Shown piece after piece: positions 9,216 to 40,203 of a DNA stretch of 64,000 nt. The stretch covers positions 1 to 64,000 of the forward strand of contig NZ_CP095390.1 in the NCBI RefSeq assembly GCF_023008585.1, read 5' to 3'. The notes under the pieces were generated by a model, which made no database searches, was not told where the DNA came from, and saw only the letters and a program-made list of their open reading frames with translations. Source of the DNA: Natribaculum breve. GTDB taxonomy: Archaea > Halobacteriota > Halobacteria > Halobacteriales > Natrialbaceae. Position numbers and translations under genes: made by a program. Each line of letters starts with the position of its first letter. Within the stretch, counting starts at the first letter, position 1.

Positions 9216-9248
9216 CAGAGCGTCGCTGTCCACTGCCAGTTCCCGAGT

Positions 9249-9324: not shown

Positions 9325-9345
9325 TCACTGCAATTGGTTCCGAGC

Positions 9346-9419: not shown

Positions 9420-9425
9420 TCGAGA

Positions 9426-9498: not shown

Positions 9499-9501
9499 CA
9501 T

Positions 9502-9574: not shown

Positions 9575-9607
9575 GGTTGGCCTCTCCTGGAAAGGGTCAT
9601 CGGCCAG

Positions 9608-9674
9608 TGGGACGGGCAGGATTCGAACCTGCGTGTTCTCGTTACAAGTGAGATGAAGGAGCCCTCACCGTCGC
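9608..9674 (-). tRNA. tRNA-like gene with truncated D-arm (Thr TGT-like)
   Basis: Acceptor GCGACGG/CCGTCCC (one mismatch), T-arm GCAGG-TTCGAAT-CCTGC, and anticodon-like loop CTTGTAA on TCTCA/CGAGA (one mismatch), which would read TGT. The D-arm region is only 12 nt and can form just a minihelix (GAGG-GCT-CCTT). Total length is about 66 nt. Its 5' word GCGAC-GGT-GAG resembles the D-armless gene at 9004. Confidence 0.5.
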
Positions 9675-9736
9675 ACCGGATCTCCGGTAAAAACTCGGCG
9701 AGAGCGTGAATGCCAGGCTCTTCCACCGTCCCGCAG

Positions 9737-9808
9737 TCTCCCCGGCACGACTCGAACGTGCGTCTCCTCCTCTACAGGGAGGCATCGTAGCCGCTAGACC
9801 ACAGGGAG
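9737..9808 (-). tRNA. tRNA-Tyr (GTA)
   Basis: Acceptor CTCCCTG/CGGGGAG with one G-U pair and the archaeal C1-G72 pair typical of tRNA-Tyr. Anticodon stem CCTCC/GGAGG with loop CTGTAGA, T-loop TTCGAGT, discriminator A. Confidence 0.93.
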
Positions 9809-9811
9809 AAA

Positions 9812-9894
9812 TGTCGCCGCGAGGATTCGAACCTCGGAAGGACCTACGCCAGCGGTTCTGAGCCGCTTCCCGTTGACCACTTGGGTACGGCGAC
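9812..9894 (-). tRNA. tRNA-Leu (CAG)
   Basis: Class II tRNA with a long variable arm. Perfect acceptor GTCGCCG/CGGCGAC, anticodon stem AGCGG/CCGCT with loop CTCAGAA, T-arm CGAGG-TTCGAAT-CCTCG. Confidence 0.93.
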
Positions 9895-9934
9895 AGGGAA
9901 TACAGGGAATCGTGTACCGGTACAGTGACCGGCA

Positions 9935-10016
9935 TGCCGCCACCAGGATTCGAACCTGGGAAGGACTAACCACACGGTCCTCGACCGTGTCCGTTTGACC
10001 ACTCTGGCATGGCGGC
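9935..10016 (-). tRNA. tRNA-Leu (GAG) with C at position 33
   Basis: Class II tRNA with perfect acceptor GCCGCCA/TGGCGGC, a long variable arm similar to the neighbouring tRNA-Leu, and discriminator A (leucine-type; serine tRNAs of this array have G). Anticodon stem CACGG/CCGTG leaves loop TCGAGGA, giving anticodon GAG but cytosine where uridine 33 is nearly universal. A shifted reading would give CGA (Ser), but the stem and discriminator argue against it. Confidence 0.85.
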
Positions 10017-10063
10017 ACAATTCGAGAATCGCTAACGACTCTGCGAATCATTTCGGCACGCAG

Positions 10064-10149
10064 CGGCGGGAGAGTGATTTGAACACTCGTGCCCTTGCGG
10101 ACGCCGCGCTTCCAACGCGGTCCCTTGGCCAGGCTAGGGAAATCCCGCC
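10064..10149 (-). tRNA. tRNA-Ser (GGA)
   Basis: Class II tRNA: perfect acceptor GGCGGGA/TCCCGCC, discriminator G, D-arm TCCCT/AGGGA, anticodon stem CCGCG/CGCGG with loop TTGGAAG, long variable arm, T-loop TTCAAAT. Confidence 0.93.
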
Positions 10150-10151
10150 AA

Positions 10152-10233
10152 CAGTGAGACGGAGAGTCGAACTCCGAAGCCTCGCGGCTCTCGGTTTCAA
10201 ACCGAGCGCAGTCACCAATCTGCTTGTCTCACC
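10152..10233 (-). tRNA. tRNA-Ser (TGA)
   Basis: Class II tRNA: acceptor GGTGAGA/TCTCACT (one G-U), discriminator G, D-stem GCAG/CTGC, anticodon stem CTCGG/CCGAG with loop TTTGAAA, long variable arm, T-arm CGGAG-TTCGACT-CTCCG. It is only 2 bp from tRNA-Ser (GGA). Confidence 0.92.
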
Positions 10234-10316
10234 ACACGCCGTCGGAGCAAGCCCCAACGAGCCCCCTTCGCGCTACTCACGGGATGTCGGAAGATGCGTA
10301 TTGCTCAGCTTCTGAC

Positions 10317-10339
10317 CCTCGCTTTTGGAGTAAGCGAGG
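10317..10339 (-). other. 8-bp hairpin downstream of the zinc-ribbon gene
   Basis: CCTCGCTT and AAGCGAGG form a perfect 8-bp stem with a 7-nt loop, 36 bp after the stop codon of the small leftward gene at 10376. No T-run follows. It is a candidate 3'-end or processing structure; the rest of the 10234-10375 spacer shows nothing. Confidence 0.4.
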
Positions 10340-10375
10340 TCACCAACACCCAGTCACGGCAGGGCCGAATGGCGG

Positions 10376-10516
10376 TCACCTCGTTCCGTGGAAGTAAGCG
10401 CCGTCGCCGGTGACGCAGATTCTCACACTTCCAATCGTGTCGATGGACGTTGTTTCACCGAGCGGGACGTGGCGGAACGCTTCCTCGTTGCAGTCAGGGC
10501 AGACATTCTTTGTCAT
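10376..10516 (-). CDS. 46-aa zinc-ribbon-like protein within the tRNA array
   Basis: A tiny protein beginning MTKNVCPDCNEEAF. One CPDC knuckle is present and a lone Cys (VRICVTGD) lies near residue 34, so the zinc site is incomplete or formed by dimerisation. Its ATG lies 2 bp after the 3' end of tRNA-Ser (GCT) on the same strand, so the message must be made as a tRNA-mRNA dicistron, with the tRNA cut out by RNase P and 3' processing. Function unknown; it is the only protein gene inside the main tRNA run. Confidence 0.6.
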   Translation of the reverse strand: MTKNVCPDCNEEAFRHVPLGETTSIDTIGSVRICVTGDGAYFHGTR

Positions 10517-10518
10517 CA

Positions 10519-10601
10519 CGCCGTGTCCCGGAGTCGAACCGGGAACCCGTGGCCGGGGCTGGCGTAGCAGGCCAGTGGGGTCACCATTCCCCAGACACGG
10601 C
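10519..10601 (-). tRNA. tRNA-Ser (GCT)
   Basis: Class II tRNA: perfect acceptor GCCGTGT/ACACGGC, discriminator G, D-arm GGGG/CCCC, anticodon stem CTGGC/GCCAG with loop CTGCTAC, T-arm CCCGG-TTCGACT-CCGGG. It is the third serine isoacceptor in the array. Confidence 0.94.
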
Positions 10602-10605
10602 ACAC

Positions 10606-10678
10606 TGAGCCGACGAGGATTCGAACCTCGGTCCTGTGCGTCCAAGGCACAGATCGTCGCCCGCTGGACTATCGGCTC
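10606..10678 (-). tRNA. tRNA-Pro (TGG)
   Basis: Perfect acceptor GAGCCGA/TCGGCTC, anticodon stem TGTGC/GCACA with loop CTTGGAC, T-arm CGAGG-TTCGAAT-CCTCG. It lies 4 bp from tRNA-Ser (GCT). Confidence 0.93.
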
Positions 10679-10819
10679 ACGGGTACTGCCGAGCGTTCGG
10701 CAGTTGATTATCTATCTGTACGACTTTCCAACTGCGCAACTGCGACCGAGTGGTCGTGATTGCGCGTCTCATCGCGGGGGCGTACTTCGGGTGCTCCCGG
10801 GAATACCACACCGGCTCAT

Positions 10820-10890
10820 GTAGGTTGCAGACCCTGCTGGGCCCAGCATCGTGGGAACGATCCAGCTGATCGCACCAACGGGCTGCCTAC
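10820..10890 (-). ncRNA. structured 71-nt RNA candidate (possible Y RNA)
   Basis: The ends pair in an 11-bp helix interrupted by bulges (read 5'-3' on the minus strand: GTAGG, CAG, CCC opposite GGG, CTG, CCTAC, with CAA and T bulged). Inside are a TGCTG-GGCC-CAGCA hairpin and either ATCGT-TCCC-ACGAT or CGATC-AGCTG-GATCG. The bulged terminal helix plus internal hairpins is the general plan of Y RNAs. On the minus strand a TATA-like GGATAAAC sits about 25 bp upstream. On the plus strand one loop would be a GNRA tetraloop, so orientation is unsettled. It is not a tRNA. Confidence 0.5.
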
Positions 10891-10928
10891 CTCGATGGGT
10901 ATCCCCACGTGGTTTATCCACGCGTCCA

Positions 10929-11002
10929 CGCCGACGCCGGGATTCGAACCCGGATCACGGCCGTGACAGGACCGTATGCTCGCCGGATTACACCACGTCG
11001 GC
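10929..11002 (-). tRNA. tRNA-Asp (GTC)
   Basis: Perfect acceptor GCCGACG/CGTCGGC, discriminator G, anticodon stem CGGTC/GGCCG with one T-G pair and loop CTGTCAC, T-arm CCGGG-TTCGAAT-CCCGG. Confidence 0.94.
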
Positions 11003-11006
11003 ATGT

Positions 11007-11080
11007 CGCCCCGGCCGGAATCGAACCGGCGGCCTCCGGATTCAAAGTCCGGCGTCCCTCGCCAGCGGAGACTCCGGGGC
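11007..11080 (-). tRNA. tRNA-Gln (TTG)
   Basis: Perfect acceptor GCCCCGG/CCGGGGC, anticodon stem CCGGA/TCCGG with loop CTTTGAA, T-arm GCCGG-TTCGATT-CCGGC. It is the first tRNA of the minus-strand array (highest coordinate). Its D-arm resembles that of tRNA-Glu (TTC). Confidence 0.94.
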
Positions 11081-11311
11081 TCGACGTAGCCGCAGCTAAC
11101 GCTGCGGAGATGTGTGCTAGCGACTCTTCGTACGCTCAGCGCGTACTGAATCGCTCGTTCGTTCCATTGTCAGGAACTAACGCAGACCAAACTGCCGCGA
11201 GCTTCAGTCGCCGTACTCGCGTGGCGCTGTGAGCTGAGCGAGTACTGGACGAAAGCAGGCGGCAATCCCGTGTTCCCTAGCCCCTGACGGGTAGTCCGCG
11301 TGGGAGCCGGG

Positions 11312-19532: not shown

Positions 19533-22500
19533 TCAATCGCGCGGTTCCGACTGGTCACTCCTCGAATCCTGGACCGACAGTGAACGAGTCCGGCGCGCAG
19601 GGCAGTTGGTTGTGTTGACACCACCGACAGTGAACGAGTCCGGCGCGCAGGGCAGTTGGTTGTGTTGACACCACCGACAGTGCTCACCAGCAGTGTACCG
19701 ACCGAACGAGAACTCGGCAATGCGGGTCATTGACGCCGTCACATCGCCCCTGACCGCCGCCAGGTCACCGTCGCTGAACGTCCGCGTTTCGACCTTCGGC
19801 CCGATTTCGCCGACGTACGCGTACCCAGCACGCGTCACTGGCTCGCCGTACAGGTCACGACACGCTAACAAGTAGATCGGGAGTTGCTTATCGTCCTCCA
19901 AATCGCGGTGACGTTCCGTTGCCTTGTAGTCGATGACAAGGAGCTCATCGTCCGGCGTCCGGTAGACGGCGTCGATGTAGCCGACGAGTTCGTGCCCGTC
20001 GATGTCGAGTTCGAACTCCCGCTCTGCGTCGATAATCTCGTAACTGGGAAGATCTAACTCGAAGTATCGGTCAATACACTGCTTTGCCGCCGGGAGCGCG
20101 TCCTCGGAACGGCGCTGGCTGGCGAGCCGGTCACAAATCTCGTACCAGCCCTCAAGGTTGCTCACACCCTGATTTGCGGCTTGCTCTGCAGAGTCGTGGA
20201 ACAGCAACCCGATTTCACGCTGAGACACGCCATCATCAGATCCGTTCGTAGCCGCGGTCTCCTGATAATCGGGGAATGCGTTGACCACGTAGTCCAAGTA
20301 GTGGCTCCGCGGGCACTCCTCATAGGCTGCCAGCGACGTGTAGCTGTGCGAGAGCGACGGTGCTGGCGTCGATGGGCCGGTCAGCGACGCAACCTGGAGT
20401 GTCTCCCGCTCGGCTCTCGGAGAGAGGTTCCCGTTGAGGGTGGCAGTTGCGAGGTCTAACACGCGGTCGCGCGCCGCTTCGACTGCGAGTTCCTCTCCGT
20501 CGTGAGTGACGGTACCACCAACGTGCCCGACAGTCTCGCTGGCCAATGTCTCAGTCCAGTCTACCGCGTCATCCGGGAGACACTCCTGTACGTCGGCCCA
20601 GAGCGGGAGCTGTCCTCGCTCTGGCTGCCACGGGATTCGGGACGGGAGGCTCTCGTCAACCATCTCTGAAACCGGGTGCACGTCCGCAGCATCGTCGTCC
20701 TCGCTGCCGCCCTGGAGCACGAGGACGTCTTCGGCGCGCGTGATGCCGACGTGGAACACGCGGCGAGTCTCACGGGCGTCACGCTCGACGAAGTCCTCGG
20801 CAAACGCAGCCGCTGGGCCATCCGAGAGGCTGGTTTCGAGCGCGTCGTAAGTGCGTGAACTCGGTGCCCACTCGTCGGCCGTGACTTGCGGGATGAGGAC
20901 GACCGGGAAATCCAGGCCCTTGCTCTTGTGGATGGTCATCACGTTCACCGCGTCGTCGGCGACATCCGGCTGACTCGTCGGGGAAGAGCCGCTTTCGTCG
21001 AACAGGGAGTCGTAGTGTTCGAGCGAGTCGATGAACTCCGGTGTGAGCGGCGGTTGAACGGCACTATCCCCGTACTGTTCGATGACGTTCTCTAGCTGGG
21101 CGAGGTCACGGCGCTCCTGCTCGCTGAGATACCACTCGATATTCGTGATGTCTGTGAGATCGCGGTACAGGTGACTGAGTGACGCCGAATCTCGGATGTC
21201 GAGGAGTTCCGTGACGTGCTTACGGGCCTCCGCGACGCGGTCGGATTCCTCGAACTCGTCGAGCGGCGTCTCGCGCAGCGTGTCTACGAGGGAGTCGTCG
21301 CCCGCGTGGAGGGTGCGGAGGTCCGCGTCGCAGAGCCGGTACCGCATTAGGAGGACGCGATTCCAGCTCACCTCGTCTTCGGGACGTGCGAGTGCCTTCA
21401 GGTAGGCGGTCACGGTGCCGACGCCGACTGATTCCGTGGCCAGATCGCCAGCAACCTGGTACGGGATGCCAGCGTCTTCGAATTCCTCGATGACTGGTGT
21501 CGCATGGTCGTTTTTCCGGACGAGTAACGCGATGTCGCCTGGGTCGTACGCCTCGTCGAGGTTCGCTGCTGCACCGCTCAGTAAATTCTGGACGACGGTG
21601 CGAAGTTGGGTCGCACCGTCCTCGTCGTCTTCGTCCGGTAATTCGACGGTAGCGACAGTGTCCCCGTCGTACGTGGGTTCGTCGACGCGTTTCAGTGTCT
21701 TGTGTCGTTGCCGGTGATTGAGCTTCTGAATCGCCTCGTTCGCCAAGTCGAGAATCGGCTGTCGAGAGCGGAAGTTCTCCTCTAACGGTTCATCTTCGAG
21801 CGCGGCGAACGCGCGGTCGAGCTCGTCGGTGATGTTGGCGACGTGTGCGCCGCGCCACTCGTAGATTGCCTGGTCGTCGTCACCAACGACGAACAGGTTG
21901 TCGTCGGTGACGAGTGACGTGACGAGGTCGAACTGGAGGCGGTCGGTGTCCTGGAACTCGTCACAGAACACGTAGTCCCACCGCTCAGCGATTTCCTCGC
22001 CGACCGGCGACTCCATCAGTGCGGCCGTCTCCACGACAAGACCGTCAAAGTCGATGAGGTTCCGTTCGTCGAGCTCACGCTCGTACGCTGCGTACCCCGC
22101 AGTCAGGTCTCGGGCCGTGAGGCAGTCCGAGAGGAACGAGTCGAGGTGGTCCGTGAGTTCGAGGTCCAGATCATCCGGGATGCCTGTCGGCGCACCGCTC
22201 GCATATCCACCGAGCAGGTATTTCGGGAGCTTGTATGCGTTGTCCGGCAACTCCTGGTCGCCTGTCTCATGGGCTTCGAACGCTGCTTCCAGCGCGTCGC
22301 AAAGATCCACGAGCCGGTCGAGGAAGTCTCGCGCGCTGGCCTCCATTCCGTCCGTCCCGAGCGCGTCGCGTTCAGCGACGAGGTCAGCGCGTGCGTCTGG
22401 GAGCGAGTCCAGCACGCTCGACACGGACCGTCCGCCCAAATGGTCGCTAGCAATGTCCTCGACGCGCTCCGAGAGGTCAGCGAGTTCGTAGACGCGGTCA

Positions 22501-23060
22501 GCAGGCCCGAGGAAGGCGTCGATATCGTCGGGCGTGATGCCGCTGCGCTTCATCGACCCGATGAAGTTGAGCAGCTTCGACGCAGCCCCTGACGCGTACC
22601 CGTCGCTCCCGTACACGTTGGGTTTCACAGACCGGTACTCGATGTCGTCCAGGACGTCAAGCACGATGGCGTACTTCTCGGCGTCCGTGGCGACCTCGAA
22701 GTCCGGATCGATCCCGGCTTCGTACGCGTAGTCGGTGAGGATCTCGTTACAGATCGAGTGGTACGTGTACGCGTCGATGTCGTATCCCGCTGTCCCGAGT
22801 TTCGCGTTGAGCTTCTCCCGCATCGAGTCCGCGGCATTGTTCGTGAACGTCAACGCGAGAATCCGGTCCGGGGACACGTCCTCCTCATCGATGAGGTGCT
22901 CGATCTTCCGCACCATCGTGAACGTCTTTCCCGTCCCCGCACCGGCGAGCACACGCATCGGGTACGCGTCGGAATCGATGATCGTCTCTTGCTGGGGTTC
23001 CGGGGTTACATCCTCTTCCGGGACCGGGTACCACGACGGGTAGTCATCACCGTCGCTCAT
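19533..23060 (-). CDS. AddA/RecB-like UvrD helicase-nuclease
   Basis: A 1175-aa SF1A helicase fused to a RecB-type nuclease. Walker A is AGAGTGKT (residues 39-46), motif II is DEFQD (367-371), and later helicase motifs include GDDDQAIYEWRG and VMTIHKSKGLDFP. From about residue 925 a PD-(D/E)XK nuclease follows (SLAAYEECP, YIDAVYR, VIDYKAT, QLPIYLLA) and ends in an Fe-S-type Cys set (ECP ... HCRWCQ ... LPC), as in AddB/Cas4-like enzymes. Its ATG overlaps the stop of the Cas4-like gene. A 50-bp tandem duplication has replaced the final residues with a 31-residue frameshifted tail. It should unwind and digest DNA ends with its AddB-like partner. Confidence 0.92.
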   Translation of the reverse strand: MSDGDDYPSWYPVPEEDVTPEPQQETIIDSDAYPMRVLAGAGTGKTFTMVRKIEHLIDEEDVSPDRILALTFTNNAADSMREKLNAKLGTAGYDIDAYTYHSICNEILTDYAYEAGIDPDFEVATDAEKYAIVLDVLDDIEYRSVKPNVYGSDGYASGAASKLLNFIGSMKRSGITPDDIDAFLGPADRVYELADLSERVEDIASDHLGGRSVSSVLDSLPDARADLVAERDALGTDGMEASARDFLDRLVDLCDALEAAFEAHETGDQELPDNAYKLPKYLLGGYASGAPTGIPDDLDLELTDHLDSFLSDCLTARDLTAGYAAYERELDERNLIDFDGLVVETAALMESPVGEEIAERWDYVFCDEFQDTDRLQFDLVTSLVTDDNLFVVGDDDQAIYEWRGAHVANITDELDRAFAALEDEPLEENFRSRQPILDLANEAIQKLNHRQRHKTLKRVDEPTYDGDTVATVELPDEDDEDGATQLRTVVQNLLSGAAANLDEAYDPGDIALLVRKNDHATPVIEEFEDAGIPYQVAGDLATESVGVGTVTAYLKALARPEDEVSWNRVLLMRYRLCDADLRTLHAGDDSLVDTLRETPLDEFEESDRVAEARKHVTELLDIRDSASLSHLYRDLTDITNIEWYLSEQERRDLAQLENVIEQYGDSAVQPPLTPEFIDSLEHYDSLFDESGSSPTSQPDVADDAVNVMTIHKSKGLDFPVVLIPQVTADEWAPSSRTYDALETSLSDGPAAAFAEDFVERDARETRRVFHVGITRAEDVLVLQGGSEDDDAADVHPVSEMVDESLPSRIPWQPERGQLPLWADVQECLPDDAVDWTETLASETVGHVGGTVTHDGEELAVEAARDRVLDLATATLNGNLSPRAERETLQVASLTGPSTPAPSLSHSYTSLAAYEECPRSHYLDYVVNAFPDYQETAATNGSDDGVSQREIGLLFHDSAEQAANQGVSNLEGWYEICDRLASQRRSEDALPAAKQCIDRYFELDLPSYEIIDAEREFELDIDGHELVGYIDAVYRTPDDELLVIDYKATERHRDLEDDKQLPIYLLACRDLYGEPVTRAGYAYVGEIGPKVETRTFSDGDLAAVRGDVTASMTRIAEFSFGRYTAGEHCRWCQHNQLPCAPDSFTVGGVNTTNCPARRTRSLSVQDSRSDQSEPRD
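19581..19680. repeat. 50-bp exact tandem duplication in the helicase 3' end
   Basis: 19581-19630 and 19631-19680 are identical. Because 50 is not a multiple of three, the second copy is read in another frame. Without it the helicase would end ...DSFTVGPGFEE-stop; with it the protein gains about 31 different residues. The Cys cluster lies just before the shift and survives. Confidence 0.9.
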
Positions 23061-23962
23061 CGCCGCACCTCCGTCGACAGGCGATCCGCACACATCTCTC
23101 GATAGTCACAGTCCGGGCACGCCTCCTCGTTGAGGAGATTGAACGGTTCTGGCTCGTGGGCTCCGTTCGTGATTCCGTCGTGTGCGGCGCGAATGAGCCC
23201 CCAAATCGTCTCGTAGTGGTCTTCGTAGATCTCCGTCGTTTCCCGCGGCCATCCACGCGCAGACACGTCATATCCAGACGCTGTGCTCTCGAACGACGTT
23301 TTGTTGAGGAGGCCGTAGAAACTGAATCGGACCTCCATCCCATCCTCGTAGAACGGTTCGTTCTTCACGCCCTCGATGTACGTCGCCGTCTGGAACGCGT
23401 TCCGCACACGCTTCGGCTCGTGGGCCTCCCCGTCGAGGTGGTCGCCAAGGTACTCGGCTGTCCCATCAGAGAGCATCCCGTGTGTTTTCCGCTTGTAATC
23501 GACGATGTGGAGACCCTCGTCTGTCCGGATGACGTTGTCTGCTTTCCCGTGAAGCCCTCGACCATTTACTTCACATTCTACCCAGCATTCTGTTGTGATT
23601 GAGCGGCGTGCGTGTTCGATGCCGACCCCGTCGTCGGGATCGAAGAACGACTCGATGGCAGCCCGGTTCTCGGCGCGCTGATACTCCCGGTGTGCTCGTG
23701 ATTCGTAGTCGTCCGCGCTGCTGTGTTCGTCCCATTTCGCATCGAAAATCCGCATCGCCCGGTCGTGAATCACCTCCGGGGCATCGTCGCGGTCGGTCTC
23801 GTCACACGTGTCTTCGATAGTCTCGTGGTAAATCGTTCCCTGATTGAGGTAGAGTTCAGTCCTGTCTGGCGCGTTCACGTCCTGTACGTACCGGTAATCG
23901 TACAACCGCGGACACGTCGCGTAGTTCGCCAGCCGCGACGGTGAGAGCGACTTCTGGCTCAT
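23057..23962 (-). CDS. Cas4-like RecB-family Fe-S nuclease
   Basis: A 301-aa stand-alone PD-(D/E)XK exonuclease. Visible motifs: first cluster Cys at C17 (YATCPRLY), His46 (YHETIED), Asp142 (GKADNV), the core D155-Y-K157 (IVDYKRK), the QTATY helix, and three C-terminal Cys (CPDCDYREMC) completing a 4Fe-4S cluster. The family trims DNA ends with defined polarity. No cas1 or CRISPR is present, so a CRISPR role is unlikely. Both ends overlap neighbours by 4 nt (ATGA), so it is translationally coupled between the AddB-like and AddA-like genes. Confidence 0.9.
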   Translation of the reverse strand: MSQKSLSPSRLANYATCPRLYDYRYVQDVNAPDRTELYLNQGTIYHETIEDTCDETDRDDAPEVIHDRAMRIFDAKWDEHSSADDYESRAHREYQRAENRAAIESFFDPDDGVGIEHARRSITTECWVECEVNGRGLHGKADNVIRTDEGLHIVDYKRKTHGMLSDGTAEYLGDHLDGEAHEPKRVRNAFQTATYIEGVKNEPFYEDGMEVRFSFYGLLNKTSFESTASGYDVSARGWPRETTEIYEDHYETIWGLIRAAHDGITNGAHEPEPFNLLNEEACPDCDYREMCADRLSTEVRR

Positions 23963-26019
23963 CGCCGCACCTCCCCGTTAGCGAACTCGACACGCGCACG
24001 CAATGCCTTCCGGAGTTCCTCGCCCCGCGCCCCGCTCTTATCGAGCAGATCCTGAACCTCCCCGAGTTCCGCTTCCAGGTCGTCGAGCGACACCGTCACG
24101 TCCCGGCTGTTGGCGCGGCGGACCTCCGCGAGGGCGTCGTCGACGCGCGACAACAGGTAGTCCTCCGCTGCTTGCTCGCTCGTGATGTGTGGGTCGTCGG
24201 ATTCGGTGACCCATGGCAGGCGGTCGTACGCGTCTGTGAGGAACCGCGACGCCTGCGCACGCTCTTCGAGCGCGGTGTCCTCGTACTCGTAGAGACAACA
24301 GTACAGGTGCTCGTCCGCAGCACCAGCCCCAACCGCCAGTCGTCGCCGCGCGTGTTCCGTGTGATACCGCGCGAACGGCCGACTCGACGCCGTGGACGTC
24401 GTCGGGAACGTCGCATCCACGTCCGGCGCGTCGAGTTCCGTTACACCAGGGTAGTCCGGCATCGATGCGACCCGCTCGGTCGGGAACAACCGCGTCAGGA
24501 ACGGGCCACCCGGGTACTCGCCGTCGACGAGATTCACAAGAAAGACCGCGCGGAAGGACTCGTTCTTGATCGCTTGTAAGTGATCGACGCGGACACCGCC
24601 GTTGAGATCCGTCGCGCTCGTCTGGTTTTGTTGGGGTGCGTACTCGTGGGCGCGTTCGAGCATCTCTTCGAAGGACTCCCACGTCGCATCCACGAACTCG
24701 GTCTCTTCGAGGAACTCAGCCATCCGGAATGTCCGCCGGACGTTCCCGAACTGCGCCCGTGCATCTAATGGAGTCGAGCGCTCTGCAATTCTCTCTTTTA
24801 ATCCCGAGTCTGTTGCCCACCAGCGGACCGCATCTTCGAGGCTGTCAATATCGCTGACGCGGTCTAAGCGCTCTGTATCGAGTTCTGGGCCACGGTCGGG
24901 TATCTCATCCTCCTCATCTGCGGCAAGATGTCGAACGACAGCGAGGAGTTCTCGAATCGCGGGGTCGTCACCGAATCCAGTGACGGTCGTTGATTCCGCC
25001 GGAATTCCGGTTCGTTCGAGCACTTCGATGGTGTCCGTAACAGTACTCCCACTTTGCTTCGTAGCAACAGCGATGTCGTCGTAATTCCAGTTTGGCTGCG
25101 CAACGAGTTCTTCGATCTCGTTGGCAACCTCGGCGAGTTGCTCGTCACTGGAGTCCGTAGCGAGGATCGAGACCGACCCTGCTTCCGGGTCTACCGGAAC
25201 CGTTTCTTCGGCGAAATACGCTGCTGTGGCAGCCGGTCGCGTCGACGGTGCCTCCGATGCCCCGCGACGAGACTCGCTGAACGAGACATAGTCCGTGATT
25301 GGCCCAGACTCGACCCACGTACGGCGCACACTCGCGTTCTCTTCGGCGATACAGACGAGGTCGCAGTCGCCCGCGAGCGCGTCGAGATACGCGCGGTCGA
25401 GCGGGAAGAACTCCTCAAACTCGACTGCGAGCACCGCCTCGAAATCGACGACATCGTCGCGGTCCTCTCCGGTGAGGACATCGAGCGCTTCCGAAATTAG
25501 TTTTCCACGCTCCATATGGCCGTGCTCGGCCAGCCACTCGTGGAACCCGTCGAGCGCAGCCGTGATGTCGCGGAGTTCCGGGGTTTCCTCGGGCGTGACC
25601 GTCTGCCAGGTGATCGTGCTCATTACGGCGTCCACGTCCTCGATGAACGACGGCTGTTCAGACGCCTGCTGGAGGTACTCCGTTTCCCACTCGTAGTCTG
25701 CGAGGAATCGATGAAGGAGTTCTCGCCGTAGCGCGTCGGAGAGAATGACGCGGTCATCGGTCTGATTGAGGACATCGGTCGCGTGCACGACGAGCGACGT
25801 CACGTACGGCGTCGCTGCACCCGGCAACTCCTTACCCAAGGTCCCCCGGAACGTGTTCGTACTCGTCGGTGCACCTGTGATGACGAGCACATCCTCAGAA
25901 TCGTGGTCGCTGAGGAGCGTTCGGTATTCGTCCCGCGCTGTCTGTTCGACGTTTTCGCCCCCGAACGGTGCAGTGACTAAGGTACCGTCGAATCGCCGGT
26001 GAGATGAGTAGTCAGACAT
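23959..26019 (-). CDS. AddB/RecC-like inactivated helicase subunit
   Basis: A 686-aa protein with an SF1-helicase-like layout but no functional Walker A: the region expected to bind phosphate reads ITGAPTSTNTFRG (47-59) instead of a GxxGxGKT loop. Downstream segments (FEEFFPLDRAYLDALAG, VFLVNLVDGEYPGG) match AddB/RecC-type folds, where the dead helicase forms a structural channel for single-stranded DNA. It lacks its own nuclease domain; the next gene supplies a separate Cas4-like nuclease, as though AddB were split. It lies 5 bp after the PLD-ATPase gene in the Argonaute operon. Confidence 0.72.
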   Translation of the reverse strand: MSDYSSHRRFDGTLVTAPFGGENVEQTARDEYRTLLSDHDSEDVLVITGAPTSTNTFRGTLGKELPGAATPYVTSLVVHATDVLNQTDDRVILSDALRRELLHRFLADYEWETEYLQQASEQPSFIEDVDAVMSTITWQTVTPEETPELRDITAALDGFHEWLAEHGHMERGKLISEALDVLTGEDRDDVVDFEAVLAVEFEEFFPLDRAYLDALAGDCDLVCIAEENASVRRTWVESGPITDYVSFSESRRGASEAPSTRPAATAAYFAEETVPVDPEAGSVSILATDSSDEQLAEVANEIEELVAQPNWNYDDIAVATKQSGSTVTDTIEVLERTGIPAESTTVTGFGDDPAIRELLAVVRHLAADEEDEIPDRGPELDTERLDRVSDIDSLEDAVRWWATDSGLKERIAERSTPLDARAQFGNVRRTFRMAEFLEETEFVDATWESFEEMLERAHEYAPQQNQTSATDLNGGVRVDHLQAIKNESFRAVFLVNLVDGEYPGGPFLTRLFPTERVASMPDYPGVTELDAPDVDATFPTTSTASSRPFARYHTEHARRRLAVGAGAADEHLYCCLYEYEDTALEERAQASRFLTDAYDRLPWVTESDDPHITSEQAAEDYLLSRVDDALAEVRRANSRDVTVSLDDLEAELGEVQDLLDKSGARGEELRKALRARVEFANGEVRR

Positions 26020-26024
26020 GGCTG

Positions 26025-28145
26025 TTACCCTCGGACGAGCCGCGTGACCCGAGACAGAACACCGGTGTTGTCAGCGGCTGTTTCAGCGTCGCGTCGTGAA
26101 TTTTCGATGATATTGGGCTCATCTATCCAATTTTGGAACCTGTTTGCGCTTTCAAACTGGACTGCCGGCCCGTAAATACTGGCCCGAATATGGGCTGGCG
26201 TAGCCTTCTGGAATTCCCAACACTGCTGCTGATCCAGATTTGCTGAAAAATCAGCGATAACACGCCCGTCGTCCTTGAAATCGAGTTCACATAGCCCGTC
26301 GGATAGCGCGCTGATCCACTTCCGACGCCCCGGGTCGTGTTCCTGCTCGGCAGGTTTCTCCAGCGGCACGTACTCCGGCGGTTCCTTCTCGGCGTACGCG
26401 TACAGCTCCGCGAACACGTCCCGAGCATCCGCGAGCCGGTCTGACTGGTCTGGCAGCGAGATATCCCGCTGCAAGAACAGGTGGGCGAACCACGGGAACA
26501 GATTACAACTGTCCGCCTGGCCCGCAATCTGCGCGGCTGCTTCTCGTTCGTCCTTCTCCAGTTCGGAGAAGTTGACGTTGAAATCCAGCGTTTTCATCCG
26601 GGTCCGGAGTTCGGATTTCGGCTTCGTCGAGTCGTTCGAGGAGAAGATAAACGTCGGCATCTGGATGGAGCCGTCCCACTTCCCCTCCCAGTACGACTTG
26701 ATTATGTCACGGTCGATCTTCGACTTCGCCACGTCGTCAACGATGTACGGAAAAACGGTGTCCGACGCACGAGCACGCTCGATGTTGTTTTTGACAAAGT
26801 CGTCGCCGGTCGTGACTTCCTGCACGTACCCGTTCGAGATGAGCCGCGCCCCGAACCGCAGGAACATACCTTTCCCGCTGTCGTTGTCGCCGTGAAGGAA
26901 CAGGAACGGTAGGTCCTTGTCGAGCTCTGCGGATTCGTATTCGGCGTAGTGATGGGCGCAGTAGTTAGCGAACGGGGCCCAGCAGAAGTAGATAATCCCT
27001 TCGTAGAAGTGCGCCCGCGTCTCCTTCTCGGTTCGCGTCTCTCCAAACTTGCCGACCGTTTCGACGTACTGCTCGATCAAATCAAGCTCGTCAGCGACTT
27101 TCTGCGGATCGTCCGGGAGAGGAGCCGTTAATTCGAGGACGGAGTCGTCAACCCGTAACCCGACCTTTTTTTCTTCCCTGTCGACGTTGAGGTCTGGATA
27201 CCCGGTGAAGGTCTCTTTGTAACGTGCGATACCGGCTGGAGTCGCTACGATTTCACCGTCGTTGACTCGGATGTTATTAGCGGACAGGGTGTCGTCCAGA
27301 TTCGAGATGGCGTCTTCGAGACCCTGCGGAGAGAGGCGCACACGCTTGTCTGGACTGATCTCTGTTGGATCGGTATCCGTATCTTCGGCGGCGAACACCG
27401 CCTTCTCTGCTTCTTCGGCGTCGGTGACGACGTTGTACGTATTGACTTGGTCGTCGTCAACCGCTTCGTCGAGCCGGGCGTTTAGTTCGGCGACCGGGTC
27501 GTCACTGAACTCGTCGCCACCCAGCCAGATGTCGTAGATCTTCGCCTCTTCTTCTGCCGTTTCTGCGTCCTCAATCTCCTCGGTGAGGTCCTCCATGAAC
27601 GGCGTCGCGTAGTCCTTGTGGAACGCGTAGAGTCGTTCGAACCACTCGTCGACGGGCGTGTCCCCGTCGGTACGCCAGGCCATGTTGACGTTGGTTTGTT
27701 TGCTCCCCTGCCAAGCCTGCTTAGAGAGGTTCGCCGACCCACAGATGAGTGTGCGAGACCCGTCCTGGTTCTCGACGATGTAGAGCTTCGTATGGAGGAG
27801 GACGCGCGCGGAATCGACGGTATGGATGAGGAGGTTGCCGTCTCGCCGCAGTGATTCCAGCTGAGCGGCGATTTTCTTCGCGTTGTTCGTGTTCTTCAGC
27901 GACCGCCGGTAGTCGTCGTGCTGGTTGTCCCCGACGATGACCTCCAGAGAATCCACTGCGAGGTCCCGGTTCTGAAACATCTTGTAGATGAACGCGGGAG
28001 ACTGACTGTACGTGACGCAGTAGACGTGCTGGGCGTCACCGAAGTAGTTCAGGAAACTGTCCCATGATTTGTCGGCAGCCATCTCCAGGCCGGCGGTGCT
28101 GCCGTCATCGAACTCGACTGTTGCTTCGAATTCTGTTTTGGTCAT
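26025..28145 (-). CDS. PLD-nuclease/ATPase fusion protein
   Basis: A 706-aa protein. The N-terminal domain has one phospholipase-D catalytic motif (HTK at 118-120 and GSANLS at 136-141), so a dimer would make a full active site, as in PLD-type nucleases. A linker of ~200 residues leads to a phage-primase/SF3-like ATPase with Walker A GDNDSGKG (419-426), Walker B FPYIVDD (465-471) and a sensor SSND near 504. The partner domain suggests DNA remodelling coupled to cleavage. It is the second gene of the Argonaute operon, 63 bp after the Argonaute stop. I do not recognise a named family with this fusion. Confidence 0.78.
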   Translation of the reverse strand: MTKTEFEATVEFDDGSTAGLEMAADKSWDSFLNYFGDAQHVYCVTYSQSPAFIYKMFQNRDLAVDSLEVIVGDNQHDDYRRSLKNTNNAKKIAAQLESLRRDGNLLIHTVDSARVLLHTKLYIVENQDGSRTLICGSANLSKQAWQGSKQTNVNMAWRTDGDTPVDEWFERLYAFHKDYATPFMEDLTEEIEDAETAEEEAKIYDIWLGGDEFSDDPVAELNARLDEAVDDDQVNTYNVVTDAEEAEKAVFAAEDTDTDPTEISPDKRVRLSPQGLEDAISNLDDTLSANNIRVNDGEIVATPAGIARYKETFTGYPDLNVDREEKKVGLRVDDSVLELTAPLPDDPQKVADELDLIEQYVETVGKFGETRTEKETRAHFYEGIIYFCWAPFANYCAHHYAEYESAELDKDLPFLFLHGDNDSGKGMFLRFGARLISNGYVQEVTTGDDFVKNNIERARASDTVFPYIVDDVAKSKIDRDIIKSYWEGKWDGSIQMPTFIFSSNDSTKPKSELRTRMKTLDFNVNFSELEKDEREAAAQIAGQADSCNLFPWFAHLFLQRDISLPDQSDRLADARDVFAELYAYAEKEPPEYVPLEKPAEQEHDPGRRKWISALSDGLCELDFKDDGRVIADFSANLDQQQCWEFQKATPAHIRASIYGPAVQFESANRFQNWIDEPNIIENSRRDAETAADNTGVLSRVTRLVRG

Positions 28146-28208
28146 GCGAGGGTTACCGGTGTGTTGACGGGTGCGTGAGTGGTTTCGTGGATCTGTACTG
28201 GCGCATGG

Positions 28209-30896
28209 TTAGATGTACGGGACACCGCGGATGACGCTCCCCTTGGTGAGGTAGCCCTTCATGGCGAAGTCGGCGCACTTGTCGGCGTAGTACGTGGTGA
28301 TAGGGAGCCGAGTGGACCGGCTCAGCGACCCGACGTGCGCTTCAGACAGCCAGTAGGTCTGTTCCGTGAGCGTGTCGAGGTCTGTCGATCCGTGGCGTTT
28401 CACGATCTGCAGCGGCCGCGGCGTGCCAGGACTCCCCTCCTTCCCACCGGTCGTGGTCAGGTAGGAGTGGTCGCCGTTGTGGACGTGGAAGGCGACGCCT
28501 TTGTCCGCGATATCGAACCGTGATTTCGACTCGTCGTACTCGGCGATACGGGGGTTCCCGGATTTCCGGATCTCGACGAGGTCGAACCGCTGAATGAGAT
28601 CCCGGGCTTTGTCGAGACGGTTGATGAGGCTCTCGACGTCGAGGTAGAACTTCCCGTCCCGATGAATGACTACGTGCCGCGGTGGTCGGCCTTCCTCTTC
28701 GGCGAAGATTTCCAGGACGTGTTTGATGACGTTCGCTACGTCATCCTCGTCGAACGTTTCGCCAGCCTGCTTTGTGACGGCCTCGGACGCGAGGATGGTT
28801 CCGTCGGCCATGATGACGTTCGCGGCTGCGCCGAGGTGTTGCTTGGTCGCGTGGTCGTACGTCACGTCGAGACCGACGAACGCGTCAACGCCCCCGGGGA
28901 CGTCGTTGATCCGCCACGGCACACCGCCCGCTTTCCCGATGAGGGACGAGCAGATGTTCCCGCGGTAGTTGTCGTTGCCGAGATTGTCGACGGAGATCAT
29001 CTGACTCGGCACGCCGAGTTGTCCGAGCCGCCGCTTGAACTCGGGATACGGGTCGTCGTAGTCCGCTGCCGCAGCCTCGTCTGCATCGGGCACCACGATC
29101 AATGCCGCATCGTAATCGCTTGCTTTCTGCGCGTGCTGGGAGTAGTGGAACTCTGAGCCGAGTTCATACGTCTCTTCGTCGAATGCTGTCGGATTCGCAC
29201 CGTAGTCTGCGAGTTTATTGAGCAGCGTGAGGACGTACCGGTGAGCCGGATCTTTCTCTTCCTCAGGATACAGCGCGATGATGTCGAACGGCTCAGGGGG
29301 TTTGTACACGTCGTACCCCTTACGTTCGAGTCCCCCGGCACCGTAGAACCCGGTCTGTCCATCCCCAAAGCGGAGATTCGGTCGGTTCCGTATCTGGTGT
29401 TCTCGGTACCCGACGTTCGTGGGCTGTGGGACCGGGTCGAAGCCGAAGTACGGCGTCGGGCCGAGGAGGTCGACGAACGACGTGACGACGTTGAACCGTT
29501 CCTCGGGTTTCATCCGGCTCTCGTTGTGGATGACGTCCAGGAACGCGTCATCGACGCGGCCCAACTGGTCGAACGTCGGGATGACCTTACAGTACTCTAG
29601 GAGCTGCGGGAAGATCGAATCCTCGCCGCTTCCGTACTGCAGATCAGCGATGATCGGGTCGCCGGCCCGCATCGAGTCGATGACCTCCTGCTCGACGTAC
29701 TTCTCGTGGTACTCCGACATCGGGACCCCTGGCCCGTCCAGCACATCGTCGTAGTCCATATCGATGATCTCCTTGACCGTCGCCGTGCGAGCACTGTCGT
29801 ACAGATCCGTGTCGTGCTCGACAGTCACCTCGGCGATATCGTGTCCACGCCGCACCCACTCGGCCGCAGAGAATGTCGATTCTAGATGGTACGCGACGTT
29901 CACGCCGCAAATCACGGTCCCGTCAGCATCGACGCGAATCCTGCACTTGTACTTCCGATAGGCCTCGAACAACCCGCTGTTCGCGGTTCGCTGCGGGGTG
30001 GGCTCGATGATCGAATCGATCCCGGACACCTCGAAGCGACCAGCAACGGCTCGTTTCACGTCCTGCTTGACGAACTCCTGGAGCGGCCCATCGTCCATGT
30101 ACGAGCGCGCTTCCAGCGTCGTCTCGCCCTGATGCACCGGCTTGACCGTGTACCCGTGAATCGAGATCGTATCGTGGAGTTTCTCGGTCGCGTAGATGCG
30201 CCGCCGGGACGCGTTGGCAGTCGTCACGGGACTCTGGATCCGTGACTGGTAGTAGTTCGCCGCTTTCGCCGTGAACCCCTCAATGCCGTTCGTGAAATCG
30301 TCAGGGTCGATCCCGCCACTCCCGGTCGCCCGGAGTTCGTACTCGTGGACCGGTAGCTCCGGCAACGACCCGAGTTCGAACTGCAGCAAGTAGTTCCCGT
30401 CCGAGAGCGGCTGTTGATGCAGGAGCTCGCCGCCACCATCAGCCGTCGGCCGCGAACTACCATCGACCTCGCTTCCGCGAACGAATTCTTCGTGATTGGA
30501 CGCATCCGATGTCACCGCGGCAGCACCACTCGAACCCCTCTCCCCTGACTGCTCGACCGGTTCTTCCGAGGGTTCACTACCGGGTGACTCGTCGTTCTCG
30601 GCAGCGGCTGGAGGGTCGTCTAACAGCGTGACGGTGAGGTCATACCCCGGATTGAGTTGCATCTCTCCTCGGAACTCGTTCCCGACGACGTTCTCCAGGA
30701 GATACCACTCCCCGACCTGCCACTCGAAATCCGCGACGTCGTTGTTGTGGAATACTGTCAGATCTACCGCTGCGCCGTCGACATCCTCCAAGTGGATTTT
30801 CCGAGCGATGGCATCGTGCTCCCACTCGTCAATCCCCGTGGCGCGCAGCGCGATGTCGATCTCTTCCCCATCCTCGATATCGGCCTTGACTGACAT
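28209..30896 (-). CDS. long prokaryotic Argonaute with N-terminal OB-fold domain
   Basis: An 895-aa guide-directed nuclease of the NgAgo type. Residues ~1-95 are an OB-fold (RPA-like) single-strand binding domain, then a Ser/Glu-rich linker (to ~165), N/PAZ region (~170-500), MID (~530-660, with YPEFKRR and SQMI) and PIWI. The catalytic set is intact: D677 (GLDVTYD), glutamate finger candidate E713 (AGETF), D747 (HRDGK) and D872 (YADKC). Catalytic long Argonautes use small nucleic-acid guides to cut invading DNA. It is the first gene of a five-gene operon with nucleases and helicase subunits. A TATTTATT box lies about 30 bp upstream of the ATG. Confidence 0.95.
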   Translation of the reverse strand: MSVKADIEDGEEIDIALRATGIDEWEHDAIARKIHLEDVDGAAVDLTVFHNNDVADFEWQVGEWYLLENVVGNEFRGEMQLNPGYDLTVTLLDDPPAAAENDESPGSEPSEEPVEQSGERGSSGAAAVTSDASNHEEFVRGSEVDGSSRPTADGGGELLHQQPLSDGNYLLQFELGSLPELPVHEYELRATGSGGIDPDDFTNGIEGFTAKAANYYQSRIQSPVTTANASRRRIYATEKLHDTISIHGYTVKPVHQGETTLEARSYMDDGPLQEFVKQDVKRAVAGRFEVSGIDSIIEPTPQRTANSGLFEAYRKYKCRIRVDADGTVICGVNVAYHLESTFSAAEWVRRGHDIAEVTVEHDTDLYDSARTATVKEIIDMDYDDVLDGPGVPMSEYHEKYVEQEVIDSMRAGDPIIADLQYGSGEDSIFPQLLEYCKVIPTFDQLGRVDDAFLDVIHNESRMKPEERFNVVTSFVDLLGPTPYFGFDPVPQPTNVGYREHQIRNRPNLRFGDGQTGFYGAGGLERKGYDVYKPPEPFDIIALYPEEEKDPAHRYVLTLLNKLADYGANPTAFDEETYELGSEFHYSQHAQKASDYDAALIVVPDADEAAAADYDDPYPEFKRRLGQLGVPSQMISVDNLGNDNYRGNICSSLIGKAGGVPWRINDVPGGVDAFVGLDVTYDHATKQHLGAAANVIMADGTILASEAVTKQAGETFDEDDVANVIKHVLEIFAEEEGRPPRHVVIHRDGKFYLDVESLINRLDKARDLIQRFDLVEIRKSGNPRIAEYDESKSRFDIADKGVAFHVHNGDHSYLTTTGGKEGSPGTPRPLQIVKRHGSTDLDTLTEQTYWLSEAHVGSLSRSTRLPITTYYADKCADFAMKGYLTKGSVIRGVPYI

Positions 30897-31154
30897 CTAC
30901 GCCGACCAACGAACGCCCAGAATAAATATGTTTCCACTAGGCGAATCTCAAACACGGTAACTCAATTTTAGCTCCAACCCACTCCAAGAAAGAGTCTCCT
31001 CCACACCAATGAGGCAATTCTGAGGGAGTGTCGAACGACACCGAGGGTTGGAAATCTGCTACACCGGGCCTGAGAGACAGCAGGACTACAGTAGAATCTG
31101 AATAGCGACATCGAGATGCGTGAATATTTGTACTAGCCCATAATAATCGTCTTT
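30897..31154. promoter_or_regulatory. divergent promoter region of Argonaute operon and ATPase gene
   Basis: A 258-bp AT-richer gap separates the leftward Argonaute operon from the rightward AAA ATPase. On the minus strand CATATTTATT (30921-30930) is correctly placed for the Argonaute start. On the plus strand CATAATAAT just before 31155 may serve the ATPase. No palindromic operator or coding sequence is apparent. Confidence 0.55.
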
Positions 31155-39037: not shown

Positions 39038-39682
39038 TAGCTGGCGGAGCTTGATTCGAGCGTCGTCGGTCGTGAATTGCCAGTCAATCGTTGATTCGTC
39101 CTCGTTTCGAGTACGTTCCCACGCAGCGACCTCCGCATGGAGTGTCGCTGCGTCAGGAATGCGCCGATCAAGACATTCCGTCCACAGGGCGCTGAACTCA
39201 ATCTCTGCCATGTTCAGCCAACTTCCGTGTTCCGGCGTGAAGTGAAATTCGAGCTTGTTGAGCAATCGACGAGCTTCCTCTGGCGGGAGATGTTCATAGA
39301 AGGCGTACCGTTGGTGCGTGTTCAGATTGTCCATTACTACCCGGATGCAGTCGGCATCCGGGTAGTGATCATCCACGAGTGATTGTATTTGCTGGACGAA
39401 CTCCTGTTTGCGCCGCCGTTTCGTTACCTCGACGTGCCGCCAGCCGGTCAGCGGTTCGCTCATCACGAAGAGGTTGCGTGTTCCATTCCGTTCGTACGTG
39501 TAGTCGTACCGAGCGACCGCTCCCGGACGTGCCGGGAGCGGGTCGCGGACCTCTTTGTGCAGTTCCTTGTTGGACTCGTCAAAACAGACGACCGGGCGGC
39601 GTGGATCGTAGGGTTCGTGATAGAGATCGAGGACTTCCTCCATCTGGCAGACAAAGGCGGCGCTGTTTTCAGGCGTAATCAC
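39017..39682 (-). CDS. IS630-type transposase, C-terminal DDE part
   Basis: A 221-aa frame with the DDE catalytic residues: VVCFDESN (first Asp), VVMDNLNTH (second Asp) and HGSWLNMAEIE (Glu). These are typical of IS630/Tc1 transposases. It begins at a GTG overlapping the stop of the upstream frame, so the transposase is split in two. The final codons and stop lie ~20 bp beyond the apparent IS end, in former mcrB sequence. It may be made by frameshifting or be inactive. Confidence 0.85.
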   Translation of the reverse strand: MITPENSAAFVCQMEEVLDLYHEPYDPRRPVVCFDESNKELHKEVRDPLPARPGAVARYDYTYERNGTRNLFVMSEPLTGWRHVEVTKRRRKQEFVQQIQSLVDDHYPDADCIRVVMDNLNTHQRYAFYEHLPPEEARRLLNKLEFHFTPEHGSWLNMAEIEFSALWTECLDRRIPDAATLHAEVAAWERTRNEDESTIDWQFTTDDARIKLRQLYPTNHD

Positions 39683-40203
39683 CCACGATTTTGACCGGTG
39701 AGGGTGCAGTCGTGTTTTTTTAGAACCTGTCGAACAGTCTCGTGAGAGATCGACTCGACGTCGATCTCGGTGAGGGCGACAAAGTGCTCGGCTAGAAGAT
39801 GCAGCGACCAGCGAGACCGTCCTTCCGGTGGGTCGCTGCAGGCCAATGCAATGAGATGTGCTTCTTCACGTCCGTCGAGTTTACGCTCGTAGACGCGGTC
39901 GGCCTTGCGGCGAGTGATCGCCGCGAGGCCGTCCTCAGTGTAGCGTTTCCGGACGCGTCCAACTGTGCCGGGATGACAGCCGACGGCTTCACTGACCTGC
40001 TGGTCAGTCAAGCCGTCATCCGAGTGCAAGAGACACCGTGCGCGTGTGAGTTCCCGCGTTTTGTACGTGCCCGCTGAAAGCATCGCATTCAACTCCGCTC
40101 GTTCATCGGCAGACAGATCGACAGAGTACTGTTGTGTTCGTGGCATGATTTCTTCAGAAATTTTCTGAACACACTCTAGAGACGCTCTACGCAGATAAAG
40201 CTA
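39038..40203 (-). mobile_element. IS630-family insertion in mcrB
   Basis: About 1.17 kb bounded by TA dinucleotides (39038-39039 and 40202-40203), as expected for IS630 TA targets. Both ends read TAGCT inward and share GAGCGTC further in; the terminal repeats are otherwise imperfect, so boundaries are approximate to a few bases. It contains the two transposase frames and interrupts the start of mcrB. Confidence 0.7.
39679..40146 (-). CDS. IS630-type transposase, N-terminal HTH part
   Basis: A 155-aa frame carrying the helix-turn-helix region of an IS630 transposase (LTDQQVSEAVGCHPGTVGRVRKRY) and a second homeodomain-like helix set ending HETVRQVLKKHDCTLTGQ. It runs out of frame at CAAAATCG, where one more A would join it to the DDE frame (TGQ-KSW-VITPEN). 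This is either a programmed frameshift site or a one-base deletion. Confidence 0.82.
   Translation of the reverse strand: MPRTQQYSVDLSADERAELNAMLSAGTYKTRELTRARCLLHSDDGLTDQQVSEAVGCHPGTVGRVRKRYTEDGLAAITRRKADRVYERKLDGREEAHLIALACSDPPEGRSRWSLHLLAEHFVALTEIDVESISHETVRQVLKKHDCTLTGQNRG

Follow-up and report, generated by a model that had tools for sequence, protein, structure and literature searches.

The closest described relative of the locus reported here is APAP, a pair formed by a prokaryotic Argonaute (pAgo) and the PLD-family protein AgaP, which has been published for haloarchaea and characterised from Natrinema pellirubrum; in another host, N. pellirubrum APAP acts against a plasmid through its PLD site and against a single-stranded DNA virus through its Argonaute (Ago) site (PMC11442185). 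According to the text available for that study, a gene for a helicase appears in its Figure 1B close to some of the ago-agaP operons (PMC11442185), and the helicase near one of the published operons might be AddA. The present locus is a leftward operon of five genes in the haloarchaeon Natribaculum breve (assembly GCF_023008585.1, contig NZ_CP095390.1, positions 1–64,000 of the forward strand; this whole stretch of 64,000 nucleotides is hereafter called the window). It encodes an Argonaute and a PLD-ATPase, followed by an AddB-like protein, a Cas4-like nuclease and an AddA-like helicase–nuclease, the last three of which (AddB–Cas4–AddA) are referred to as the trio. A preliminary description of this DNA, made from its letters alone, knew of no described system with this composition, which holds for the trio and not for the Ago–PLD pair, already known as APAP. 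In the open-licence PubMed Central (PMC) literature, no description was found of an Argonaute with AddB/AddA or with Mre11/Rad50/HerA/NurA; new against the literature searched are the AddB–Cas4–AddA set in an Ago operon and the pairing of haloarchaeal pAgos with exchangeable end-processing machines.

For most catalytic pAgos, it is an open question where the DNA guides come from and how these proteins, having no helicase, dispose of double-stranded targets. Among the clues from elsewhere, TtAgo makes its guides itself, RNA guides can be provided by a co-encoded RNase, and for pAgos placed in E. coli the host RecBCD plays a part. RecBCD shapes the distribution of pAgo guides in E. coli, guides being enriched at RecBCD-active places, and it has been reported not to be required for CbAgo (PMC10269773). 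In S. elongatus, the loss of ago, a cas4-like gene, uvrD or recJcy favours the transfer or maintenance of RSF1010 (PMC10653904). The accessible text of a 2018 census of pAgo operons describes UvrD- and Cas4-type genes in some of them and assigns no fixed operon make-up to particular pAgo groups (PMC6299218), in contrast to the defined composition found here.

We read the locus, with a probability of about 0.58, as an Argonaute defence operon of APAP-like kind, into which a split AddAB-type helicase–nuclease has been recruited as the DNA-end-processing arm. The AddAB-like arm is supported by the linkage of the trio to closely related Argonautes in 17 of 18 genomes, by a re-association of the same genes in Halosimplex, by conserved motifs, and by gene packing maintained in 14 genomes. 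The locus is real, conserved and partly new, and the broader pattern of machines beside haloarchaeal Argonautes is the more interesting result.

An open reading frame (ORF) check recovered all five leftward ORFs where the preliminary description had placed them, filling window positions 19,533 to 30,896 (Table 1). Reading from Ago, the genes are separated by 63, 5, −4 and −4 bp, the true start of AddA probably lying at 23,060, which gives the last 4-bp overlap. By called starts, the Ago–PLD gap is 54–64 bp and the Cas4–AddA gap −4 bp in 14 of 14 genomes, while the PLD–AddB gap is 5 bp in 13 of the 14 (about 190 bp in L120) and the AddB–Cas4 gap is −4 bp in 11 and +26 bp in three. The divergent region between Ago and the AAA_14 ATPase measures 255–260 bp in all 14 genomes; a sigma-70 promoter scan of this gap was uninformative, the promoter type being wrong for archaea. 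Judged from these sequences, the packing of the operon is conserved across the 14 genomes beyond chance. Across four pairwise comparisons, the ratio of nonsynonymous to synonymous substitution rates (dN/dS) is 0.04–0.20 for each of the five genes, indicating purifying selection on every one.

Table 1. Features of the Argonaute operon and its divergent neighbour, in window coordinates.
Feature	Coordinates	Strand	Basis
Long-A Argonaute, 895 amino acids (aa), N-terminal OB-fold, tetrad D677/E713/D747/D872	28209..30896	-	PADLOC, Pfam, alignment
PLD-ATPase, 706 aa, AgaP-like, PLD nuclease + AAA+ domain	26025..28145	-	Pfam, alignment, predicted model
AddB-like subunit, 686 aa, helicase fold, Walker A lost by motif, no nuclease domain	23959..26019	-	Motif, model
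Cas4/AddB-C-terminal-like PD-(D/E)XK nuclease, 301 aa, four conserved cysteines (Fe–S type)	23057..23962	-	Pfam, alignment
AddA/RecB-like UvrD helicase + C-terminal PD-(D/E)XK nuclease, four cysteines	19533..23093	-	Pfam, alignment
Divergent intergenic region, 258 bp	30897..31154	.	Sole sizeable non-coding gap ahead of operon
Divergent AAA ATPase (AAA_14/DUF4143), 559 aa	31155..32834	+	Pfam; neighbourhood reading

The identities first proposed for the five products, a catalytic OB-fold Argonaute, a PLD-ATPase, an AddB with a dead Walker A, a Cas4-like protein and an AddA-like protein, are borne out by profiles and motifs. The Argonaute matches the PADLOC pAgo model with 1077 bits and Pfam Piwi (3.5e-20), and none of its four tetrad residues varies among 15 aligned sequences. 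CpAgo and CbAgo are the closest PDB sequences for the MID–PIWI part; D677 and D747 align with alanine in the CbAgo entry 6qzk and with aspartate in the CpAgo entry 9jh7. With a complete DEDD tetrad, this Ago is catalytic as far as its residues can tell. Its N-terminus (residues 12–85) resembles replication factor A (NCBIfam PRK07217, E 0.004, under the model cut-off), and the OB-like N-terminal domain also matches shorter proteins of about 330–430 aa in other genomes.

The PLD-ATPase matches Pfam PLDc_2 (4e-7) and has 15 residues between its HTK and GSAN motifs, followed by a C-terminal P-loop ATPase. Among 25 aligned sequences, H118, K120, S137, N139, G419, G424, K425, D471 and N504 are invariant and G136 is nearly so. 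In the predicted model, with a predicted local distance difference test (pLDDT) score of 81, the N-terminus matches Nuc-type PLD nucleases, and the C-terminus matches the SCCmec Cch helicase (Z 12.7, 245 residues) and also MCM/SaPI helicases, with the NrS-1 helicase region also ranked by Foldseek. The PLD homologues of loci L136–L143 carry a long insert between the motif halves.

The Walker A region of the AddB-like protein reads FGGENVEQTA, a motif by which Walker A is lost. Its predicted model (pLDDT 84) has the AddAB B subunit as best Foldseek match (E 4e-24) and, in VIA-align against 4cej_B (1156 residues), covers residues 2–769 (Z 26.4, 614 aligned), with smaller UvrD chains outscoring AddB (Z up to 32.6). 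Because the alignment is confined to residues 2–769 of 4cej_B, the C-terminal nuclease part is absent; the missing domain corresponds to the product of the next gene, the Cas4-like PD-(D/E)XK protein, and the idea that AddB is split into a structural subunit and a free nuclease thus stands. The Cas4-like protein matches Pfam PDDEXK_1 (1.9e-23) and keeps C17, C282, C285 and C291 in 57–58 of 58 homologues, D142 in all 58, and D155 and K157 in 54. The AddA-like protein matches Pfam UvrD (1.9e-60) and PDDEXK_1; its GxGTGKT and DExQD motifs and its nuclease residues H955, D1030, D1044 and K1046 occur in 62 of 62 homologues and its four cysteines in 56 of the 62, and by motif it is an intact UvrD-type helicase. 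The NCBIfam addA/recB models match it below their cut-offs.

Three other readings were tried and not upheld. A CRISPR Cas4 is not indicated for the Cas4-like protein, which reaches 34.7 bits with TIGR00372 against a cut-off of 65; no cas model scored above its cut-off in the scanned neighbour proteins, among which only weak Csa3-type regulator matches appeared, CRISPR arrays not having been searched. The many PADLOC hits of AddA to Gabija/GajB are a generic UvrD match, and the other four proteins have no GajA match. A phage origin was discarded, 50,697 phage records having yielded no match to AddB.

The association with end-processing enzymes extends beyond this locus. Across a comparison set of 391 haloarchaeal genomes, 50 long Ago loci were defined by an Ago of at least 560 aa, shorter, weak and OB-only matches being left out; in one of them (L171) the Ago is split into pieces of 577 and 262 aa. 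On a list of machines set by the analyst, which does not hold the N. pellirubrum DEAD/DEAH helicase and on which loci with two machine kinds are filed under one, 39 of the 50 lie within 10 kb of an end-processing machine, or 40 when G278, a genome in which the locus is joined across a contig break, is counted. The machines are AddB–Cas4–AddA (12 loci, 13 with G278), Rad50–d18–HerA (seven), full AddB–AddA (five), Mre11–Rad50–NurA(–HerA) (five), MrfA(B) (five), a DNA2-like protein with Mre11 and/or Rad50 (three), SbcD–SbcC (one) and AddA alone (one), at least six kinds in all. The earlier suggestion that end processing is packaged with the Argonaute is backed by this wider comparison.

The Mre11–Rad50–NurA–HerA set is of a type known from thermophilic archaea. 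Sets of the form Mre11–Rad50–NurA–x–HerA, whose fourth protein is about 225 aa long and has no Pfam match, adjoin PLD-ATPase and/or Ago at five loci (L156, L158 and L196; L160 and L171). HerA and NurA have been reported absent from H. volcanii, in the accessible text of PMC7776575.

Chance co-location of Argonautes and machines was rejected by comparison with two other classes of defence gene. Twenty genomes, four of them with AddB–Cas4–AddA, were picked to cover the Ago types after the neighbourhoods had been seen, and the 50-locus count is independent of this choice. UvrD, HerA, Rad50-like and MrfA matches total 290 in the 77.5 Mb of these genomes, and one lies within 10 kb of 15 of 20 Ago loci versus 4 of 62 N6-methylase loci (Fisher 4.5e-9) and 4 of 27 Mrr loci (5.5e-5), uniform placement giving at most 6.5%; at 6 kb, the counts are 8 of 20, 0 of 62 and 1 of 27. 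Control loci less than 30 kb from an Ago were excluded, neighbouring loci were merged when no more than 12 kb apart, and positions were taken from start coordinates. Two Ago loci counted as misses have a machine further off: in G257, Rad50 lies near the far end of the contig, a possibly circular molecule, and in G320, MrfA lies at 10.4 kb. Together with the 39 of 50 loci, this test supports the end-processing idea better than the single locus does.

On a quickly built tree of 58 Ago proteins, switches between machine types number at least 18; long branches come together in this tree, and support falls below 80 for 10 of its 55 inner branches. In this tree, L115 was set to AddB–Cas4–AddA (the trio being on G278:C370), L176 and L189, on short contigs, were given no machine state, and loci repeating genomes already present were left out together with L223 (a cyanobacterium). 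Near neighbours differ, with SbcCD at L168, MrfAB at L169 and none at L170. So many changes are incompatible with one frozen neighbourhood inherited with Ago, which was rejected on this basis. As a group, haloarchaeal Argonautes probably pair with interchangeable machines of one functional type, and the frequent position of Ago beside unrelated end-chewing machines in related archaea suggests that both activities cooperate against invading DNA. Haloarchaeal catalytic Argonautes may even form a general defence class, the second half of which is an exchangeable DNA-end-resection machine that makes guides from invader DNA and destroys it, non-homologous engines having repeatedly taken one another's place in that position; we hold this broader proposal at even odds.

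The tie between trio and Argonaute is uneven. AddB matches occur in at least 140 of the 391 genomes, PLD matches in at least 98 and Ago-query matches, the OB domain alone included, in at least 81, tallies that may be low because scoring was limited to a few top candidates in each genome. With a close trio defined by AddB identity of at least 75%, 35 were found: 13 beside an intact Ago (G278 included), six beside a truncated Ago or PLD remnant, and 16 beside neither, although in one of these 16 (L126) an Ago of 32% identity lies at a distance of 9.5 kb. AddB, Cas4-like and AddA genes are adjacent in all 33 close loci read outside the window (L102–L135 minus L115), though in L106 the contig stops within AddA. 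Seen from the Argonaute, the trio accompanies 17 of 18 intact Agos of at least 80% identity, taken from the 391-genome set plus further searches and spread over many genera: 16 on the same contig, among them Halocatena pleomorpha (L107/L203) with a broken PLD, and one, G278, on a partner contig (C370) that holds the PLD end, AddB, Cas4-like and AddA start before it ends. With 17 of 18 set against 13 of 35, this Ago is bound to the trio more than the trio to Ago, and the trio is a pre-existing module that is also found without Ago. In two Halosimplex genomes (L212 and L214), the genes stand in another order, AddB–Cas4–AddA, an OB-fold gene, Ago (50–53%) and PLD.

The preliminary description had called the machinery dedicated to the Argonaute, which the 16 trios without Ago or PLD and the six with remnants contradict. 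Homologues found mostly without Argonaute, which it had named in advance as speaking against it, are the rule for the trio and not for close PLD: of 14 non-fragment PLD copies of at least 92% identity (one cut by a contig end), 12 lie beside an intact Ago and two, in G304 and G332, beside a broken or truncated one with PLD and trio intact.

Several observations weigh against the favoured reading. No listed machine lies within 10 kb at 11 of the 50 long Ago loci (10 with G278; two are on contigs shorter than 8 kb), and 22 of the 35 close trios have no intact Ago beside them. None of 11 loci at 57–63% AddB identity (L136–L146) has an Ago. In L210 (YIM A00013, Ago 80% identical), PLD and trio are absent within 10 kb and no AddB match occurs in the 3.7-Mb genome, and a Natrarchaeobaculum plasmid carries an Ago–PLD pair (48%) with no trio in the 10 kb around it. 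AddA distances follow those of Ago and PLD well (r 0.75 and 0.74), but those of AddB and Cas4 correlate with Ago and PLD at r 0.29–0.42, following Ago only moderately (about 0.4), and PLD follows Ago no better (0.40). N. pellirubrum APAP has no listed machine within 10 kb, only a DEAD/DEAH helicase, yet it restricts plasmid and virus, and the claim that the operon is a self-contained system is in that light unproven; this label, like that of a dedicated machinery, is better given up. Genomic linkage alone cannot separate guide supply, target degradation and repair.

AddB distances follow those of the Cas4-like protein fairly well (r 0.60) and those of the other genes weakly (0.29–0.42), hinting that this inner pair (window 23,057–26,019) has been exchanged by recombination; the hint is weak because the PLD–Ago correlation is also just 0.40.

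The alternative that survives best, and still an unlikely one, is that the trio is an independent mobile split-AddAB defence or repair module, which shares a promoter and site with Ago–PLD and acts in parallel without exchange of guides or substrates. The 16 solitary trios fit this, as does L125, where PDDEXK4 lies 96 bp from AddB although 6.9–7.0 kb separate them in Ago-bearing relatives and in the window; Ago presence changes at least nine times on the AddB tree, two of the changes being forced by well-supported branches, and N. breve carries a second, diverged trio at C1:2,607,337. An independent passenger is less easily reconciled with a 5-bp PLD–AddB junction kept in 13 of 14 genomes and a Cas4–AddA overlap kept in all 14, with an Ago that lacks the trio in just one of 18 close genomes, with re-association in another order in Halosimplex, or with the recurrence of the same functional class beside other Agos far above both defence-gene controls. 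The second trio (L152, C1:2607337–2614000; AddB about 35% identical) is followed by a 161-aa gene shared with L153 and L154, and may be a chromosomal version.

A slightly smaller chance is given to the view that the true pair is the PLD-ATPase and the end-processing machine, with the Argonaute as an optional targeting add-on. Six loci (L136, L137, L139, L140, L142 and L143) combine the trio, a long-insert PLD-ATPase and a divergent 375-aa OB-fold-like protein that resembles the Ago N-terminal domain, with no Ago in the stretch read, and L156, L158 and L196 have PLD with Mre11–Rad50–NurA–HerA and no Ago. The degraded Agos of G304 and G332 point the same way, and among the five proteins PLD varies least, with a mean distance of 0.047. 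Many machine-bearing Ago loci, however, have no PLD within three genes (L162, L163, L173–L175, L177, L181, L182, L184, L186 and L191–L195). That the operon, instead of acting in defence, helps host replicons to terminate replication, to be decatenated or to have breaks repaired is improbable, since its patchy distribution, its lower-GC (guanine–cytosine) island rich in restriction-type genes, the plasmid-borne copy and the restriction of plasmid and virus by characterised APAP (PMC11442185) outweigh the repair families to which all attached machines belong, the help that TtAgo and other pAgos give in completing replication, and the dependence of the SeAgo and LrAgo effect on recombination machinery (both in the available text of PMC10269773).

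If the operon is indeed an APAP-like system with an AddAB-like arm, AddA would unwind linear or broken invader DNA with the AddB-like protein as structural partner, and the AddA nuclease and the free Cas4-like Fe–S nuclease would trim the two strands, roles suggested by family and fold. The resulting short single-stranded pieces could load into Ago as DNA guides, and Ago, through its DEDD site, and the PLD-ATPase would then cut matching circular or single-stranded invader DNA, as reported for the N. pellirubrum relatives (PMC11442185). New ends might return to the AddAB-like machine, which would degrade the DNA opened by Ago and PLD, so that cutting and guide production would amplify each other. 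The role of the trio is likely to be guide supply and/or target degradation. A candidate engine is co-encoded here; a relative, H. hispanica, the host of the APAP work, is genetically tractable, and the natural engine swaps behind closely related Argonautes are ready-made controls.

The divergent AAA_14/DUF4143 ATPase adjoins Ago in nearly all close relatives and Ago–PLD in several clades, and it also adjoins Ago-less trios in another clade. Proteins of about 1600–1670 aa lie beside Ago loci or Ago-less trios at L103, L105, L111, L115, L120, L128, L131, L132, L202 and L224; one family (c16) is Sacsin/NO VEIN-like, a second (c40) is of similar size with a similar N-terminus, and the L224 protein, annotated as an ATP-binding protein, is similar in length only. 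The surroundings form a lower-GC island with many restriction-type genes, beside which a minus-strand cluster packs 15 tRNA genes into about 4 kb (window 6,994–11,081). Near the island edge, where GC climbs from 0.54 to 0.63, a 155-aa ORF (window 39,679–40,146) matches positions 2–111 of the 299 in an NCBIfam IS630 transposase model, its first part.

Among known systems, the trio shares several features with Bacillus subtilis AddAB, represented by PDB entries 4cej and 3u4q. Both have an AddA that joins an SF1A/UvrD helicase to a C-terminal nuclease, an AddB fold and a second Fe–S-type nuclease. Unlike in AddAB, the AddB nuclease is here a free 301-aa protein, the AddB Walker A is lost, the AddA nuclease also carries four cysteines, and the machine is coupled to an Argonaute. 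The trio is AddAB-like rather than AddAB, since its AddB is not fused to the C-terminal Fe–S nuclease. DdmDE is said to combine a catalytically dead pAgo with a helicase–nuclease that is not of AddAB type. The Ago described here differs from those of DdmDE and of long-B and short pAgo systems in its complete tetrad, catalytic by sequence. DdmDE and other pAgo–helicase systems do share with this locus the pairing of a pAgo with a helicase–nuclease, there directed against plasmids, and the Alteromonas pAgo with a HEPN RNase shares a co-encoded nuclease, there providing guides (available text of PMC12904381); that system uses RNA guides and an RNase, whereas a DNA helicase–nuclease set is found here.

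The nearest relative remains APAP. Here, too, a catalytic long-A pAgo with a complete DEDX tetrad lies next to a PLD-family gene, the gap of 63 bp falling in the range of 31–64 bp given in the text available for PMC11442185; the protein families are the same, and the Ago is 33% identical to that of N. pellirubrum over its full length. The differences are that AddB–Cas4–AddA follows here, where N. pellirubrum has a DEAD/DEAH helicase further downstream, and that the split AgaP motif HxK(x)49GSxN is absent, the catalytic residues being close together (15 apart). As its PLD protein lacks the published split motif, the N. breve operon is an APAP-like variant rather than a typical member.

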